The position numbers and the translations under genes were made by a program. The notes under the pieces are model-generated. The model had not been told where the DNA came from. It made no database searches and saw only the letters and a program-made list of their open reading frames with translations. From an uncultured Planctomycetales bacterium (GTDB lineage: Bacteria; Planctomycetota; Planctomycetia; Pirellulales; Thermoguttaceae), in contig CAMZEO010000002.1 in assembly GCA_947305735.1 (NCBI GenBank), positions 1 through 64,000 of the forward strand: 64,000 nucleotides of DNA, read 5' to 3'. Shown here one piece after another: positions 3,299 to 62,842 of the stretch (positions are counted from its first letter, which is position 1; every line of letters begins with the position of its first letter).

Positions 3299-3391
3299 TA
3301 ATTAACGCGGCCTTGTCAACGAAGCCGTTAACGTCGCGCGTCGACTGAAAGTTCTCCGTCGATCGTCGCTTTGCCATAAAGGAGTCGTCTA

Positions 3392-4534
3392 ATGTCGTCA
3401 GTCGATCTGCCCGATCGCGTGTTTAGAAAGAAAAAGGATCTTGAAATCGATCCGCTGTTCCGCGCTCTCGTCAAGCTGTCCGGTTCCGACCTTCACCTGA
3501 AGGTCGACCGTCCTCCTTACGTGCGCGTTAAGGGCGCCTTGCGCACGCTGAACCGCGGACCTATTGACGACGACGAAATGAATCGCCTCATCTTCCCCAT
3601 GATGGACGAGCGCAACCGGAAAATCTATAACGACACCGGCGGCGCGGACTTCGCGCACACGTGCGTCGTCGACGGCGTTTCCTGGCGCTTCCGCGTCAAC
3701 GTTCTGACGCAAATGGGGCACGTCGGGCTTGTCGCGCGCCGCATTAACAACTTTATTCCCGAATTGGAAAAACTTCACATTCCGTCGGTTCTTTACGAGT
3801 TGTGCAAGTTCAGCCAGGGGATGATTCTTCTCGCGGGCGTGACGGGGTCCGGAAAGTCGACGACCATCGCGTCCATGTTGAACTGGATCAATAAGAATTA
3901 CAACAAACACATATTGACCCTCGAGGACCCGATCGAATTTATGTTCACCGAGGAAAAATGCCTGATTAATCAGCGCGAGATTGGTCAGGACGTCGTTGAC
4001 TTTGAAGTCGGCATGAAACACGCCGTCCGCGAAGACCCCGACGTCATGCTCGTAGGGGAAATGCGCGACCGCGAAACGTTCGAAACCGCTATTCACGCGG
4101 CGGAAACGGGGCACTTGGTGTTCGGAACTATTCACGCGTCCACGGCTCCGTCGACTATCGGGCGTATTCTCGACCTGTTTCCCGCCAATATGCACAAGGC
4201 GATTCGATCCGCCATCGCGATGAATATGAAAGGCATCGTCGCGCAAAAATTGCTTCCGTCGATTTTACCCGGCGTCCAGCGCGTGCCTACGTGCGAAATC
4301 ATGATCGTCAACAACGTTATCCGAAAGTTGATTCTCGAAGGCGAAGACGAAAAACTCGGCGACGCTATCCGTATTCAGGCGCAAGAAGGGATGCAAGACT
4401 TCACGATGTCTCTTAAGTCGCTCGTTCAGATGAAGAAAATCGACCGCGCGACCGCCTTTGAAGTCGCGCCTAATATCGAGTCCCTGAAAATGGCTCTCAA
4501 AGGCATCGAGGTCAAGGAGCCGGGTATTCTCTGA
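3392..4534 (+). CDS. PilT-like type IV pilus/secretion ATPase
   Basis: Walker A GVTGSGKST, VREDPDVMLVGEMRDRET, HAAETGHLVFGTIHAST. Confidence 0.93.
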   Translation: MSSVDLPDRVFRKKKDLEIDPLFRALVKLSGSDLHLKVDRPPYVRVKGALRTLNRGPIDDDEMNRLIFPMMDERNRKIYNDTGGADFAHTCVVDGVSWRFRVNVLTQMGHVGLVARRINNFIPELEKLHIPSVLYELCKFSQGMILLAGVTGSGKSTTIASMLNWINKNYNKHILTLEDPIEFMFTEEKCLINQREIGQDVVDFEVGMKHAVREDPDVMLVGEMRDRETFETAIHAAETGHLVFGTIHASTAPSTIGRILDLFPANMHKAIRSAIAMNMKGIVAQKLLPSILPGVQRVPTCEIMIVNNVIRKLILEGEDEKLGDAIRIQAQEGMQDFTMSLKSLVQMKKIDRATAFEVAPNIESLKMALKGIEVKEPGIL

Positions 4535-53551: not shown

Positions 53552-53754
53552 CTTGTTTTCCGTCGGGGAACGATCCGCGCGAGGAGTCTCTCCGCTTCCC
53601 CCATTGGGACGGACTGCAAATCAACGCGCCGCAATCGTCCAACCGTCCCGTCGGCGTCGACGTTAGATTTGCGCAAGCAAATTTTAAAATCAAGACTTTA
53701 AGAAAAGCCGAAGCCGTGTTTTAGTTCTAAAACACGGCTGTGATCGGCGAATAA

Positions 53755-54318
53755 TTACGACTTTTCTTCAAGCGTAATTATTTCTCTTTCGCATTCCGCA
53801 GTTACGCCTTCGTCCCAATCGTTATTGACAAACGCGTCGACGCTCGAAAATTTTCTGGAAAGGTCGTAACCCTTATGGATATAAATGTCTTCTGAAAACC
53901 ATATCGCTTTTTCGAAAGACAGTTGACGATTTCCAAAATCGAAAACGAGGCCCCTTGTGAGCCAGACGTCGTACGTCTGGTCGCCGTTTTTGAATAACCG
54001 TTGGTTTTCCTGAATTACCGATACGCTTTTTATCTTTTCTTTGATTGGCGTTTCGATAAATACTTTACGATCGACAACCTGATAACGTTCGGTTTCAATT
54101 GTCCATACCGCTACGTCCTCTTTTGTTCCAAAATAGTCGAGCGGTTCTGTGAAACTGTACAGGTAAAACAGACCGTTTTCCGCTTCTATTTGCACAACTT
54201 GCGAAGACGAATTAATGTAATTGAACGAATCGCGTCTTATTGCGACAAGTTCCTTTCCAACAAGAGATTGAAGTATCAAAATCTCTTGTTCTTTTAAACG
54301 AATATCTATTTTAACCAT
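53755..54318 (-). CDS. Unknown protein in the toxin/immunity region (possibly immunity-like)
   Basis: 187-aa ORF; same strand and similar size as neighbouring putative immunity genes; no family recognised. Confidence 0.55.
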   Translation of the reverse strand: MVKIDIRLKEQEILILQSLVGKELVAIRRDSFNYINSSSQVVQIEAENGLFYLYSFTEPLDYFGTKEDVAVWTIETERYQVVDRKVFIETPIKEKIKSVSVIQENQRLFKNGDQTYDVWLTRGLVFDFGNRQLSFEKAIWFSEDIYIHKGYDLSRKFSSVDAFVNNDWDEGVTAECEREIITLEEKS

Positions 54319-54406: not shown

Positions 54407-54955
54407 CTAATCAACTTGATAATGTTGGTCAGAAACGTCTTTAGCCTCAAAACTACCCGCGCGCCGGGATAGTATTTTATCCGTAAACAGAGCGAGATAT
54501 TCGCCTTGGGCAACCGCGTAATAAGTCGGCGGATAAAGTCGTTCAATTTCCGTGTTTGGGACGGGATGTTCGGCGACCTCAAACCATGTTAAATCGTCAT
54601 AGATTACGCTCGAATATCCGCAAGACAGGTCGACGTTGACTTGCCTTTTTGTCGGAATGTAGGTCTTTATGACGTTGATATTACGTTCTCTGTCAAAAAC
54701 ATGAAGGGTTCCGCATTGGGGACGTCGCCACATATAATTGAACAACCCCATAAAATCCTCGTAGACGGAGTCTGATTGATATAGATACGGACTTGGAACG
54801 AGATATTCCGAGCGCATCTTTTCATTATTGGGGTCGTATTTCGATTCCGTAATATTTTTCCAGGTTTCAATGGGAAAAAGAATGAGTTCTATTCCGTTAG
54901 GTTCGTCATGATAGCGTATTCCTTTTCCGCAACCTCCGCATTGTAATCCTGCCAT
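54407..54955 (-). CDS. Putative immunity protein, paralogue of 55462..55953
   Basis: CGGCG...IELILFPIETWKNI...YMWRRPQCGTLHVF aligns with CECG...IVLWAYPDKQWKDI...EIWRCPKCERLYIF; ggagaatactATG. Confidence 0.6.
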   Translation of the reverse strand: MAGLQCGGCGKGIRYHDEPNGIELILFPIETWKNITESKYDPNNEKMRSEYLVPSPYLYQSDSVYEDFMGLFNYMWRRPQCGTLHVFDRERNINVIKTYIPTKRQVNVDLSCGYSSVIYDDLTWFEVAEHPVPNTEIERLYPPTYYAVAQGEYLALFTDKILSRRAGSFEAKDVSDQHYQVD

Positions 54956-54965
54956 AGTATTCTCC

Positions 54966-55406
54966 TTAATTCATGTCGTACATAACGCCGTTGTGGAATA
55001 ATTTTACCTTACCCTTAATCCAATTTTTTCGCTTTCCTTCCTGAATCGCTTTGCTTACAATCCTATAGGCTTCCTGGTAAGACGAATATGCGGACGCTAT
55101 AACCACGATTCCCTCCCGGTGTGTTTCAGGAGGATAACGATAGGCGTCCGCTGTTTTCTGTAAAATGTATTTTTTGTCGTTTCATTCAGCCGTCGTCTGA
55201 ACCGCGTTCAACGTTGACGTCAACCGCCGGACTTCCGTCGGAACTTGACGCGTTGCCCCAACTTATAACGCTACCGTCTGAGAGACCGCGCCGACGACCC
55301 TTTTCCCGCCCCGTTTTTTATCATAAACAGGTATTTCAATACCGCCATGGGCTAATTAATCATATAATTCTTTGGCGGTCTTTTCAGGATCGTCTGACTC
55401 GAACAT
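54966..55406 (-). pseudogene. Possible decayed ORF upstream of the 182-aa immunity-like gene
   Basis: One frame with stops at 55356, 55263 and 55182; last 71 codons (NDKKYILQKTADAYRYPPETHREGIVV...KLFHNGVMYDMN*) open but lack ATG. Confidence 0.35.
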
Positions 55407-55461
55407 GGCGCAAGAGTCCGTCGAAGCTTTTTTAAAACGGCGATTTTGAATTCTCGTTCGC

Positions 55462-55953
55462 TTATTCGTCTTCCAATGGATTCATAATAAGAGGTTTTGG
55501 TCGCGTTGGAGAAGGAACAAAACGGTATTCGAGGGTTTTCTTCGTCGTTGAATCGCGCAACAGTAATCGAGTATAGTCTCCGTAAATCTCGATTTTTATC
55601 GATGAGGAAGGAATGGTCGACGCGTCAATTTCGTTCGGAAAAATGATTTCGTCCCATTCGACGTCGGTAAACACGTGCCAGAGTTCTCTGGACGGATCCC
55701 CGGCGAAGATGGAGTCGTCGACTATTTCGTACATTGACCCCTTATTGGACGGATAACGAAATATGTACAAACGCTCGCATTTTGGACAACGCCATATTTC
55801 GAACGTTGCGTCGGGAATCAACACGGGATCAGTCTTTCCTATCTTTTGTATATCTTTCCATTGTTTATCGGGATACGCCCACAATACAATATCGCTGGGG
55901 CTCATAGAATCGGTCAAGTATTCGCCGCATTCGCATTCCATATGCATTTTCAT
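55462..55953 (-). CDS. Putative immunity protein with zinc-ribbon-like Cys pairs
   Basis: CECG and CPKC pairs; ATGA overlap with the upstream toxin stop (55950-55953). Confidence 0.65.
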   Translation of the reverse strand: MKMHMECECGEYLTDSMSPSDIVLWAYPDKQWKDIQKIGKTDPVLIPDATFEIWRCPKCERLYIFRYPSNKGSMYEIVDDSIFAGDPSRELWHVFTDVEWDEIIFPNEIDASTIPSSSIKIEIYGDYTRLLLRDSTTKKTLEYRFVPSPTRPKPLIMNPLEDE

Positions 55954-56534
55954 ACGTCCTTTCTGTAATAGAAGTAACCTTCGTTTGTTAAAATTTCGAC
56001 GTTAATAGGTAGTTTTTTATCTGAAAACGATCCACGAGCCCGGTTGACGATTTCATCAGCCTGTTTCTTGGTGATGTCCGCTTTTCTAGCGTCTAAAATC
56101 ACATTCTGAGCTTTTTGTTTGACCGCTTTTTGAACGTCTTTGCTTCCCGTATTGGCGTTTGGTTTGTTTAGCGTTTTTACTTCGGTAATTGTATCATTAA
56201 CCTTCAAATCTGGCGCGCGGTCTTTTTCTATTTTGGATTTGGGAATTCTTCTAACGTTATACCCCCTTTCCAAAAGTTCTCCAATAACTGGGAGTTCGTG
56301 TTGTCTAAGACCGTCTGGTTTTCCAGAAAGAGAGCCTCGAGATCTTGAACCAACAGTTCTTGAATAAAACCGCATTGGCGATTTCCGCCCCATATGGTTT
56401 CCTTTATTATACGATTCCAACTTCATGGGTAGAGAAACTGAAATCTGGTAAATTTCACGCTGAATTTCACGAGAAAACAAAAGGGACGACTGGAGAGCGG
56501 GAGAATGCGTCCATGTGAGCAGGCGTTTGTTCAT
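55950..56534 (-). CDS. Orphan CdiA-CT-like PD-(D/E)xK nuclease toxin (true start may be internal)
   Basis: ELPVIGELLERGYNVRRIPKSKIEKDRAPDLKVNDTITEVKTLNKPN...KQKAQNVILDARKADITKKQADEIVNRARG; D-x(n)-ExK motif. Confidence 0.65.
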   Translation of the reverse strand: MNKRLLTWTHSPALQSSLLFSREIQREIYQISVSLPMKLESYNKGNHMGRKSPMRFYSRTVGSRSRGSLSGKPDGLRQHELPVIGELLERGYNVRRIPKSKIEKDRAPDLKVNDTITEVKTLNKPNANTGSKDVQKAVKQKAQNVILDARKADITKKQADEIVNRARGSFSDKKLPINVEILTNEGYFYYRKDV

Positions 56535-56755: not shown

Positions 56756-58102
56756 CTATGAGTTAATTTGCGCTAAACGCTCGCAAAGAGGCAAAAGCTC
56801 CTCGATCTTCGCTACGATTCGCTTTTGTTCCGATAAGGGAGGAACGGGAACTAATAGTGAATGCAATACTCTAGAAGACAACCCTTGAATTGATATCCCT
56901 TTTCCTGTTATCAAACCTGCATTTTTGTAATAGAAGAAAATATAGTAGAAGAAGGAAATTATCAGACTTCCAAATGGTCTCAATCTATGAATATGATTTT
57001 GAATTCGCATACTGTAATCAAAGTTCCAAATTGCGGATCTTCCGACATCTCCACCTTCAAGAACTAAAAGGTCTCCTTTTTGTACAGAACATTTTTCAAT
57101 TTCCGTATCGGTAAAAAGCATCGTTTTAAGTTTATCAAGTTCAAAACGATTCCAGAATACGTTTGACGTTGTAATGTACTCGTATGGCTTCCCCAACTTG
57201 TCCGACGAATTTAGAGCCTTTCCTGTGTTATGTTGAAATAAATCTCCTATACGAACCCACTTCCACCCGTCCGGGATCTCAAACGGAATCTCGTCTTCTT
57301 TAATCTCGGGCAAGGGCTTTTCTTTTTTAATCTTTCCTTCTTTGACGAGTCGTTGTTTCTCGCGTTGAATCTCGCGATAGAGTTCTTCCGCAGTTCCTTC
57401 GTCGGGGCGTTGTTCGACGAGTTTGCCCTGAATTGCCAGCTGCAAAACGCTCTTTTGAAGATCGCCGGGAAATCGCTTGTCGAGCTCCCCAAGTCGATTC
57501 CACGCTTCCTCGTAACGCTCGACATAAGGCAAAAGTTCCTCGATCTTCGCCACGATTCGCTTTTGTTCCGATAACGGCGGGAGAGGAACCATGCAGTTAG
57601 ATATTTGATTAACCGTTATTTGTGGAATTGCGGACCCTGAATACGCGAACCATATTGGTTTAAAAGCGTAACAACAATAATATAAATATTCAGGTAAGAT
57701 ATCATGAAGCTTGGTCGCACAAATTGTAGTTTGAGTACACGTTGCAACTTCGTCTTTAACTAACGTTACATATCCAATAGAATTGCCTCGTGCAGGAATT
57801 ACTAAATCGTCTTTATGTAATTCTAACTCGGCGCATTTCACGTAACCGAGAACTGTATCAGATTGAGTTGCGCTGTAAACAGGAATTCCCTCGTCGAACA
57901 AGTCTTTTTTTAGAATGGTTTTGCCCATTCTTATATTAGCGAAAAATCCAAATCTTTTCCAAATCCAGTTATCTGGAATTGGGAATATTTCATCTTCCCA
58001 AACTTCACCCTTTAATGAGATACCTTCGTTTTTGTTTTGTTCAACCAGTTTCCCCTGAATCGCCAGCTGTAAAATACTGTTCCTCAACTCCTGCGGCGTC
58101 AT
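56756..58102 (-). CDS. hsdS: Type I restriction-modification specificity subunit HsdS
   Basis: Two TRDs with repeated PPLSEQKRIVAKIEELLP and LQLAIQGKLVEQ spacers. Confidence 0.94.
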   Translation of the reverse strand: MTPQELRNSILQLAIQGKLVEQNKNEGISLKGEVWEDEIFPIPDNWIWKRFGFFANIRMGKTILKKDLFDEGIPVYSATQSDTVLGYVKCAELELHKDDLVIPARGNSIGYVTLVKDEVATCTQTTICATKLHDILPEYLYYCCYAFKPIWFAYSGSAIPQITVNQISNCMVPLPPLSEQKRIVAKIEELLPYVERYEEAWNRLGELDKRFPGDLQKSVLQLAIQGKLVEQRPDEGTAEELYREIQREKQRLVKEGKIKKEKPLPEIKEDEIPFEIPDGWKWVRIGDLFQHNTGKALNSSDKLGKPYEYITTSNVFWNRFELDKLKTMLFTDTEIEKCSVQKGDLLVLEGGDVGRSAIWNFDYSMRIQNHIHRLRPFGSLIISFFYYIFFYYKNAGLITGKGISIQGLSSRVLHSLLVPVPPLSEQKRIVAKIEELLPLCERLAQINS

Positions 58103-59588
58103 TGGTTCCCCCCAAGCAAGTTCTGAATCGTATCGAGAACTTGGTCGATTTCGGCGTTAAGACTCGCTCGTTGCTCCTGATAGCGCAGTATCAAATCGCC
58201 GGGGTCGAGAATTTCGTCTTCCTGATGCGGGAACCCACACTGGTCGAGATTGTACCAAGTTCTTCGCTCAACTGCTTATAGGAATATTTCTTCGCCTTGT
58301 CGAACCCGTCGACGACGATCTCCTTTCGGTCGTTCCACCATTCCGCAACGGGCTGGAAATGTTCGAGTTTCATCGGCTTGGTCTTGCTGAAATGCTTATA
58401 CCCTTCGGGCATGTCGAGCCGATAGAACCACGTTTCCTTCGTTTGACCCGTCCTGTCGAAGAAGAGAATGTTTGTCGTAATGGACGTGTACGGCGAAAAG
58501 ACGCTGCCGGGCAGTCGGACGATCGTGTGAAGATTGAACTCGTTGAGCAGCTTCTTTTTAAGCGCGACTTTGGCGCCGTCGGTTCCGAACAGGAACCCGT
58601 CGGGCAAGACGACGGCGGCGCGTCCGTTTTGTTTGAGCCGTTCAATGATGATTGCCATAAAAAGGTCGGCGGTTTCGCTTGACGCAAGATCGGCGGGGAA
58701 AAAGTTTTTGATTTCCTTTTGTTCAGAACCTCCGTAGGGAGGATTCATTAAAATGACGTCGAATTGATCGCTTGGCGTATAGTCGAGCAATTTCTTGACA
58801 CTTAGCGAATTGTTCCGAAAGATTTGGGGATTGTCCAACTTGTGAAGGAACAAATTTGTAACGCAAAGCAGATAAGGAAGTTGTTTTTTTTCGATACCGT
58901 AAAACGAATTGCGCCACAAATCGTCGTCTTCTGTTCTTTTGATTTTCTTTTTGAGTTCCTTAAGCCACGAGACGATAAACCCTCCGGTGCCGCAGGCAAA
59001 ATCCGCCATCGTTTCTCCAATTTGCGGATTAATCGTTTGCGCCATGAAATCAGTTACGGCGCGCGGGGTGTAGAATTCTCCCGCCGACCCCGCGCTCTGA
59101 AGTTCTTGGAGAAAAGACTCATAAATACCGCTGAAAGCTTGTGATTCTTTGTAATCCTCAAGTTCAATTCCGTCGACAATGCCGACGACTTGCTTTAATA
59201 AATGACCTTCTTTCATATAATTGTTGACGTCGCTAAACGTTTCGCCAACAATGCGTTCGCGAATTGGTCGGTTTTCTTCGGCTGAGATCCTTTTTAGAGT
59301 CGGAAATAATCGATCATTAACGAATTTTAGAAACTCCGAACCGGACATTCCGTCGTTCTTGAGCTTTTCTCCCTCTTTTTTTACGCGCGCCCAGTTTTTC
59401 CATCGGCAATCTTCGGGAATGACCGGTTGATAATCGTCTTCAAGTTCCCAGTCGGCTTCTCTTGAATCGTAGGCTTTCAGAAACAGAATCCATGCGATTT
59501 GTTCAATGCGTTGAGCGTCGCCGTTAATGCCCGGATCGTTACGCATAACGTCGCGTATTTTTTTAACAAAACTTCCCACATTGCTCAT
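58099..59588 (-). CDS. hsdM: Type I DNA methyltransferase subunit HsdM, apparently frameshifted near 58255
   Basis: DFACGTGGFIVSWL, ILMNPPYGGSE; the annotated frame stops at 58191, while the adjacent frame encodes YNLDQCGFPHQEDEILDPGDLILRYQEQRASLNAEIDQVLDTIQNLLGGNQ* ending at 58099. Confidence 0.9.
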
Positions 59589-59590
59589 AG

Positions 59591-61945
59591 TTACGCCGCC
59601 TTTCCCTGGTAAATCGCATTTTCAAGTTCATGAACCGCTTCGAGATAATTTTCTTTTCCGCCGAAATACCCGACAATTTTGACGGGTTGTCCCAGTTTTT
59701 GGAACGGATCGATTTTCAAAACGGCGATTTCTTCAATTTCGTAAACGCCGTGATCCGTATATTTATCGAGAAGCGCTTCGAGGACTTCGCGCGCTTTGCC
59801 GGAGTATTTGTCGAATAGACCGCTTTGTTTGGCTTTTTGAGCGCGTTCGCGCCGTGTGAGCGGCTTTTGATCAAACGCCAAATGACAGATGAAATCGAAA
59901 TCGTCGTAGTTCGCCATATTTTCACGCGCTTTGAGCGCATCGAGGTCGATTCCCCAGTTTTTAAAGATCTCTCGAAAGAAATCTTTTTTGGAGGAGGCTC
60001 GCCATTCGGCAATGAACTTTTCAAGAGAACCAAAATGACCGAGGATATTGTATTTAGTGTAGTCGACGAGGTTTTCGACGCGCGTTGAGTTGGTTTCCGC
60101 GTCAAAAACGGAAAATCGCTCGCCGACAATTTCGACGCGGCACCCGTTGACGTCGACGACCGGCTTGACCTTTTTTTCCGGTTCCGGGTTTTCTTTCTCT
60201 TCCGATTTCGGCTTAGGTTCTGCTTCTTTGTCTGGGGCGAAGTCGTCGTCGATTTGAACGGGCCCGTCCCACGATTCGTCGGCGAACAGGCGCGTAACGT
60301 TGCGGAAGTCCATGACGACAAACGACTCTTTTCTCTTTATTTCCGGTATGTCGTCGCTATTGACGAGCCTCGTTCCGCGTCCGATGATCTGCTTGAACTC
60401 AGTCATCGAGCCGATATTTTGGTCAAGAATGATCAATTTCGTCGTCTTACAGTCGACGCCCGTTGAAAGAAGTTTAGAGGTCGTGGCAATTACGGGATAG
60501 GGCGCCGTTTTTGAGATGAAGTACTCCAGTTTGCTCTGACCGTATTTATCGTGTCCGGTGATTCTTACGACGTAGTCGGGGTTCTCCTTGACCATGTCGG
60601 CGTTCAAATTAACAAGTTCCATGCGCATACGATCGGCGGCGTCTTCGTCTTGACAAAAGACAATCGTTCTGGCCATGCGGTCGTTCTGTTGGAGATATTT
60701 GGTTACGCATTCGGCGACTTTTTTCGTTCGATGTTCCAAAACGATCCTACTGTCGAAGTCGGAGTTGTTGTAGACGCGGTCTTCAATGTCGTTGCCGTAT
60801 TTGTCGACTTGTCCTTTATAAGGTTTCCATCCTTCGCCGACGTCGAACGTTACGTTAATAACGCGAAAGGGAGCAAGGAATCCGTCTTCAATTCCCTGTC
60901 GGAGCGAATAGGTGTAAAGGGGTTCGCCGAAGTAGTTGACGTTCGAGACGTATTTCGTCTCTTTCGGCGTGGCGGTCATGCCGATTTGCGACGCGGAGCT
61001 GAAATATTCGAGGATTCGCCGCCAGCGGCTCTCCTCTTTAGCGGAGCCGCGATGACATTCGTCGACGATGATCAAGTCGAAGTAGTCGGGCGCGAACAGC
61101 TCGCTGTAATGTTCCTGATCGTCGTCCCCGACAAGTTGCTGATAGAGCGCGAAATAGACTTCGTAAGACTGCAAAATGGAAAGGTCGTCTTTGGAGAGAT
61201 CGATTTTGTGGATTTTCTTCTCCAAAGGACTGAAATCTTGCCGAATCGATTGATCGACAAGAACATTTCGATCGGCGAGGTAGAGAACTTTGCGTTTGAG
61301 TCCGCTTTCGAGAAGCCGCCAGACAATTTGAAACGCCGCGTACGTCTTGCCCGTGCCTGTCGCCATGACGAGCAAGACGCGGTCTCGACCGCCAGCGATC
61401 GCGTCGACGGTTCGATTGATCGCTACGCGTTGATAATAGCGCGGCTCTCTGCCGTTTGCCTTCATTCCCGTGTAATACGGCTGATTAAGCGCGCGTTCTT
61501 CATTTTGCGAAAGCGTTTTTCTCGACCTTAAACGCGCGACAAGTTCCTCCTCTGACGGAAATTCGTCGAGAGAAAGTTCACGTTCCTGCCCCGTGAGATA
61601 ATCGTGTTCGACGAAAAAATCGCCGTTGGAACTGTACGCAAACTTGACGTCGAGCGCTTCCGCATACGCCATTGCTTGTTGAATTCCGTAGCCCGACCCA
61701 TGTTTATTCGATTTCGCCTCAACGACCGCCAAAGGAACGTGCGCGTTTAGAAACAGGACGTAGTCGGCGAATTTTGGCGGTTTCTTGACTGTTTTGGAGC
61801 CTTGAAGAACAATAGGCTCGTCGGTGATCTTATATTCCAGACGTATTTTCCTCTTCGGCCATTTCTTCAGGATCGCGGGCGTTATGTATTGGTTTTTGAC
61901 GTCCTCTTCGGACATTTCGTTTTTTGAAAACAGGGACTCGGTCAT
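59591..61945 (-). CDS. hsdR: Type I restriction endonuclease subunit HsdR (EcoEI-like)
   Basis: PLAVVEAKSN, MATGTGKTYAAFQIVWRLL, LIIVDECHRGSAKEESRWRRIL, GMTATPKE, QIIGRGTRL. Confidence 0.95.
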   Translation of the reverse strand: MTESLFSKNEMSEEDVKNQYITPAILKKWPKRKIRLEYKITDEPIVLQGSKTVKKPPKFADYVLFLNAHVPLAVVEAKSNKHGSGYGIQQAMAYAEALDVKFAYSSNGDFFVEHDYLTGQERELSLDEFPSEEELVARLRSRKTLSQNEERALNQPYYTGMKANGREPRYYQRVAINRTVDAIAGGRDRVLLVMATGTGKTYAAFQIVWRLLESGLKRKVLYLADRNVLVDQSIRQDFSPLEKKIHKIDLSKDDLSILQSYEVYFALYQQLVGDDDQEHYSELFAPDYFDLIIVDECHRGSAKEESRWRRILEYFSSASQIGMTATPKETKYVSNVNYFGEPLYTYSLRQGIEDGFLAPFRVINVTFDVGEGWKPYKGQVDKYGNDIEDRVYNNSDFDSRIVLEHRTKKVAECVTKYLQQNDRMARTIVFCQDEDAADRMRMELVNLNADMVKENPDYVVRITGHDKYGQSKLEYFISKTAPYPVIATTSKLLSTGVDCKTTKLIILDQNIGSMTEFKQIIGRGTRLVNSDDIPEIKRKESFVVMDFRNVTRLFADESWDGPVQIDDDFAPDKEAEPKPKSEEKENPEPEKKVKPVVDVNGCRVEIVGERFSVFDAETNSTRVENLVDYTKYNILGHFGSLEKFIAEWRASSKKDFFREIFKNWGIDLDALKARENMANYDDFDFICHLAFDQKPLTRRERAQKAKQSGLFDKYSGKAREVLEALLDKYTDHGVYEIEEIAVLKIDPFQKLGQPVKIVGYFGGKENYLEAVHELENAIYQGKAA

Positions 61946-62765: not shown

Positions 62766-62768
62766 AAG

Positions 62769-62842
62769 CACGCCCGAAGGGATTCGAACCCCCAACCCTC
62801 GGTTCCGAAGACCGATGCGCTATCCAATTGAGCCACGGGCGC
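62769..62842 (-). tRNA. tRNA-Arg (TCG)
   Basis: GCGCCCGTGGCTCAATTGGATAGCGCATCGGTCTTCGGAACCGA...GGTTCGAATCCCTTCGGGCGT; anticodon loop CTTCGGA. Confidence 0.93.

Follow-up and report, generated by a model that had tools for sequence, protein, structure and literature searches.

The stretch of DNA analysed here (the window, 64,000 nucleotides from an uncultured planctomycete of the family Thermoguttaceae) carries two overlapping genes on its minus strand that probably form an orphan toxin-immunity cassette, derived from the pool of polymorphic toxins that is shared by CDI systems, Rhs proteins and phage MuF proteins. Such a cassette would act in a TA-like manner, and its immunity protein may also guard against related toxins. 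Toxins of this kind are ordinarily joined, in bacteria and in phages, to large delivery proteins. Both stand-alone toxin cassettes (PMC3482391) and tRNase-type domains in MuF toxins (PMC5576092) have been described before. As orphan toxin-immunity pairs are already known, the pair in the window is a further example, with a partner family that is unmatched in the libraries searched.

The toxin gene and its predicted product

Both open reading frames are present as given in the preliminary description of this DNA, together with the ATGA overlap (positions 55950-55953) in which the stop codon of the toxin gene meets the start codon of the putative immunity gene; AAAGGA stands upstream of the overlap. 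The toxin had been described as a protein of 194 amino acids, and an open reading frame of that length exists (55950-56534, minus strand), but its start is doubtful. Translation probably begins at M48 (ATG at 56391-56393), giving a protein of 147 amino acids encoded by 55950-56393, since homology begins there and a ribosome site precedes this codon. An orphan homologue with 44% identity aligns from residue 4 of the M48-initiated form, and comparison of the toxin homologues revealed no homology upstream of M48. The ATG is preceded by AAAGGAAACCAT, with a GGAA ahead of it, and a putative ribosome site, AAAGGAAA, is located at 56398-56405, whereas M1 lacks a clear ribosome site. The 5' extension of the longer reading frame (56394-56534) is probably untranslated. 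A TATAAT occurs at 56406-56411 with no recognisable -35 element, and a promoter scan upstream of the toxin gene recognised no site.

The proposed CdiA-CT-like nuclease domain was confirmed by comparison with hidden Markov models. Amino acids 107-186 of the 194-residue reading frame (positions 55977-56216) match the Pfam family CdiA_C (PF18451) with 38.6 bits (E=1.2e-9), which is far above chance and exceeds the curated cut-off of 26.6 bits; the orphan homologue scores 32.1 bits. An AlphaFold2 model of the 147-residue form (pLDDT 82) has an αβββαβ PD-(D/E)xK-like fold. In the numbering of this form, the helix glutamate E33 (56295-56297) and D62 are kept in all six aligned CdiA_C proteins and E71-x-K73 in five of the six, the motif D62 ... 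E71-x-K73 being encoded by 56175-56210. As read from these alignment columns, the arrangement of E33, D62 and E71-x-K73 is the layout of a PD-(D/E)xK site. The PD-(D/E)xK-like core that had been suggested for the toxin is thus supported, the assignment being model-based, on predicted secondary structure and the four conserved residues.

Searches with the toxin in NCBIfam gave no match, and sequence comparison with the PDB gave no significant match to any chain. A fold search of the PDB with the model produced nothing at E<=0.001, the top match being a weak one to the restriction enzyme EcoT38I (E=0.07, TM 0.39). The same type of search in a viral library yielded nine matches at E<=0.001 (best 9e-7, probability 1.00), mostly to MuF proteins, minor-capsid proteins (C-termini) or CDI-toxin-like phage proteins, and PHROG 13257, a family of head maturation proteases, matches the toxin via its C-terminal part (1e-6). 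Together, these matches point to a toxin domain of the phage and CDI type. The PD-(D/E)xK CdiA toxins of which structures are available comprise two tRNases (CdiA-CT of Bp1026b and E479) and two Zn-dependent DNases (those of TA271 and YPIII) (PMC9086364). The toxin from the window resembles them in its predicted core with E, D and Lys as site residues, and differs in that neither it nor its partner has a significant PDB sequence match. Since the solved relatives include both tRNases and DNases, either tRNA or DNA may be the substrate of this toxin, and 'tRNase' is at most a putative label.

No MuF, Rhs, TPS or export domain was found by Pfam in the toxin reading frame, either at 147 or at 194 amino acids, in agreement with what had been reported. 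A CDI system consists of a CdiA protein with a TPS/filament region and a CdiB partner, and the toxin reading frame has no TPS match; in a TPS search of the whole host genome the control itself matched nothing. The N-terminal Phage_Mu_F domain that defines MuF polymorphic toxins is likewise absent. What is found is the organization of an orphan module, i.e. a toxin with no delivery part, directly followed by a small gene that is kept with it, and this pair occurs in two genera.

The partner gene and related pairs in other genomes

The second gene of the pair (55462-55953, minus strand) encodes a putative immunity protein of 163 amino acids. It matches no known family in Pfam, NCBIfam, PHROG or the PADLOC defence models and no PDB entry by sequence, and the AlphaFold2 model is too poor (pLDDT 50) for a fold search, so gene order and co-occurrence are the basis of the proposed immunity role. 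Both argue for the role that was originally proposed, as homologues of the gene are conserved beside toxin homologues on two contigs (G482:C78 and G482:C31) of a Thermoguttaceae MAG from water-deer rectum, the bacterial family to which the window genome also belongs. The relatives have two cysteine clusters in common, CxCG near the N-terminus and WRCPxC, and since both are shared, a zinc ribbon is likely in the 163-residue protein. No relatives were found in phages, plasmids or IMG/VR, and the immunity alignment is too variable for a profile scan. This zinc-ribbon-like family is new to every library that was searched in the present analysis.

Of 392 genomes sampled from the phylum, 4 carry CdiA_C; with the family this rare, few sequences were available for comparison. 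On contig G482:C78, which stems from another genus, a stand-alone toxin with 44% identity is followed by an immunity protein with 35% identity. Its N-terminal leader is similar to that of the window toxin, and the motif K-S...F-[FY]-S-x-T-x-G-x-R...S-R-G is common to both stand-alone toxins. The pair is accompanied by genes for an HTH regulator (repressor), an ImmA/IrrE-type peptidase (Peptidase_M78) and a DUF4417 protein, and the start of the toxin gene overlaps the end of the DUF4417 gene. The two occurrences could represent a free-standing CdiA_C family that has parted from the delivered toxins, with its own translation start, a conserved leader, zinc-ribbon antitoxins and an intracellular TA or defence use, one member being controlled by phage-type HTH/ImmA proteins, although we consider this broader proposal rather doubtful. 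The 3444-base contig itself carries the same 133 bases at both ends (1-133 and 3312-3444, 100% identical), which is compatible with a unit that is circular or repeated in tandem and contains the HTH, ImmA/IrrE, DUF4417, toxin and immunity genes together with the 3' part of a gene next to them.

On contig G482:C31, a third relative of the immunity gene stands behind the gene for a Phage_Mu_F protein whose C-terminus is a CdiA_C domain. This resembles the MuF toxins of temperate phages (PMC5576092), in which the same type of toxin domain is placed at the C-terminus of a phage head protein; in G482 a relative of the window immunity gene follows, and the window gene differs in having no MuF domain. 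Other planctomycete CdiA_C domains (G230:C9 and G277:C373) occur in proteins that resemble Rhs C-termini, as judged by sequence (NLY.Y...P..DPLGL-type). Neither a tblastn search with the toxin against phages, plasmids and IMG/VR nor a profile scan of viral contigs gave a match. Two further toxin matches were left out of the comparison, one that looks like a frame-broken remnant (G483) and one that lies inside an unrelated reading frame (G001:C87).

The surrounding region and alternative explanations

The pair is located in a region (53-63 kb) with a GC content of 0.42-0.52, as compared to about 0.49-0.61 in the rest of the window. Sequence conservation with the sibling genome G007 extends through the left flank to position 53,626; the right-flank genes (Rex and a tRNA) have their match on another contig of that genome. 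Since the flanks are on different contigs in that genome, the region is variable and probably consists of acquired DNA; the genome of the window is a MAG with a completeness of 81% and a contamination of 6%. The segment 53000-63000 is a probable accessory island and adjoins a tRNA-Arg gene (62768-62842).

Adjoining the pair, on the same strand, is a decayed reading frame with three in-frame stops (54966-55460), of which the C-terminal piece weakly matches a gene that stands beside an immunity paralogue in G018 (E=2e-7 over 26 amino acids). It is followed by a second zinc-ribbon-like putative immunity gene (54407-54955), a paralogue of the first (27% identity over 85 amino acids, E=3e-5), and by a small gene (53755-54318, also on the minus strand) that, from its position, is possibly a third. 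The latter has no family match in Pfam, NCBIfam, PADLOC or PHROG, and no relatives were found in phages or plasmids. In G018, a small gene akin to the window's decayed reading frame lies between two immunity-family paralogues (C50, 1-717; C39, 11405-12171); the same sequence is present at the ends of both contigs, and no stop codon separates the first paralogue from the small gene, into which its reading frame continues.

Such an arrangement would also be expected if the locus served as a reservoir of immunity proteins that are useful against toxins from neighbours or phage particles, the toxin itself then being a relic, either in decay or hardly expressed. We regard this as the less probable reading of the intact pair, albeit one that has to be taken seriously. 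It fits the decayed reading frame with two or three putative immunity genes as neighbours, and also the situation in G480, where the toxin is a broken remnant and the immunity reading frame beside it is intact and identical in DNA sequence to that of G482 (0 of 438 positions differ), while an adjacent coding gene differs by about 2% between the two genomes; recent recombination could also have caused this identity. It further agrees with observations on EC93, in which an orphan CdiA-CT lacks translation signals and its CdiI is made (PMC3150448), and on gut bacteria that are protected by orphan immunity genes (PMC12247911). The acquired interbacterial defence clusters of gut Bacteroidales described in the latter study similarly combine an array of immunity-like genes with acquired DNA in a gut bacterium, whereas the window locus still has an intact toxin. 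It is this intact toxin gene, which keeps the catalytic-type residues, is preceded by a plausible ribosome site and encodes an N-terminus conserved in the stand-alone form, that argues against a mere leftover. The orphan cdiA-CT/cdiI modules of Poole et al. (2011; PMC3150448) likewise have a detached CT toxin domain with a small immunity gene and no delivery part, sometimes in arrays with decayed members. Those modules are situated behind a full cdiBA locus, carry VENN and in most cases have no start signals; near the window pair there is no cdiA gene or VENN motif, and a usable start is present.

The leader that is common to both stand-alone toxins would also suit an effector that travels inside phage particles or leaves the cell by an unrecognised export pathway, the N-terminal 30 residues then serving as an address tag. 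The host genome does contain MuF genes, and the family also occurs as a MuF C-terminus, but the toxin gene has no MuF, Rhs or export domain and RHS_repeat has no match anywhere in the host genome, which makes delivery improbable. The two MuF-type phage head proteins of this genome (G000:C111 and G000:C322) are identical in their middle part and differ in their C-terminal regions, where neither has a CdiA_C domain; they may be polymorphic MuF genes.

A functional link to the type I R-M operon next door had been proposed as well. The genes hsdS, hsdM and hsdR (56756-61945, minus strand; Pfam Methylase_S, N6_Mtase, HsdM_N, ResIII and EcoEI_R_C) indeed lie upstream of the pair on the same strand and in the same low-GC region, but the pair does not follow directly, as the gap from the end of hsdS is 362 bp to M48 (221 bp to M1). 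A defence system in which restriction failure would release or activate the toxin, leading to abortive infection, was set aside as very unlikely in view of this gap, of the homologous pair that adjoins HTH, ImmA and DUF4417 genes on a contig with no R-M genes, and of the PADLOC defence models, which gave nothing beyond one weak match (E=0.013). Inside hsdS there is a 76-base direct repeat (56776-56851 and 57514-57589, 86% identical), presumably corresponding to conserved regions around two target-recognition domains.

Proposed function and significance

The best reading is that of an intracellular nuclease which is held by its immunity protein and kept as a TA-like or immunity cassette. A 147-residue CdiA_C nuclease with a PD-(D/E)xK-type metal site would be translated from its own start and, as it has no delivery domain, would be made in the cytoplasm and cut nucleic acid there, either tRNA or DNA. 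The zinc-ribbon-like partner, translated in step through the overlapping gene, would bind and block the toxin. Together the two would form a TA-like module that secures its own retention, and the immunity protein may protect against incoming related toxins too. A captured toxin with an intracellular use, as was suggested earlier, is plausible in view of its own start and the conserved stand-alone form. For the intact pair, TA-like use is favoured over an immunity reservoir, not strongly, since an undamaged toxin gene with a start of its own and no delivery part is present, as in the orphan Rhs pair of Salmonella, a type II TA system (PMC7043789); the two uses can coexist. That pair also has no delivery part and a proposed action inside the producing cell, and differs in toxin family and host, the function of the window pair being putative.

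With this gut planctomycete there is now a clear instance of a single bacterial family in which a delivery-toxin domain exists in three forms, i.e. as a phage-head fusion, free-standing beside its immunity gene, and as a decayed copy whose immunity gene is retained. This makes it testable whether orphan modules persist for their toxin, in a TA-like manner, or for their immunity protein.
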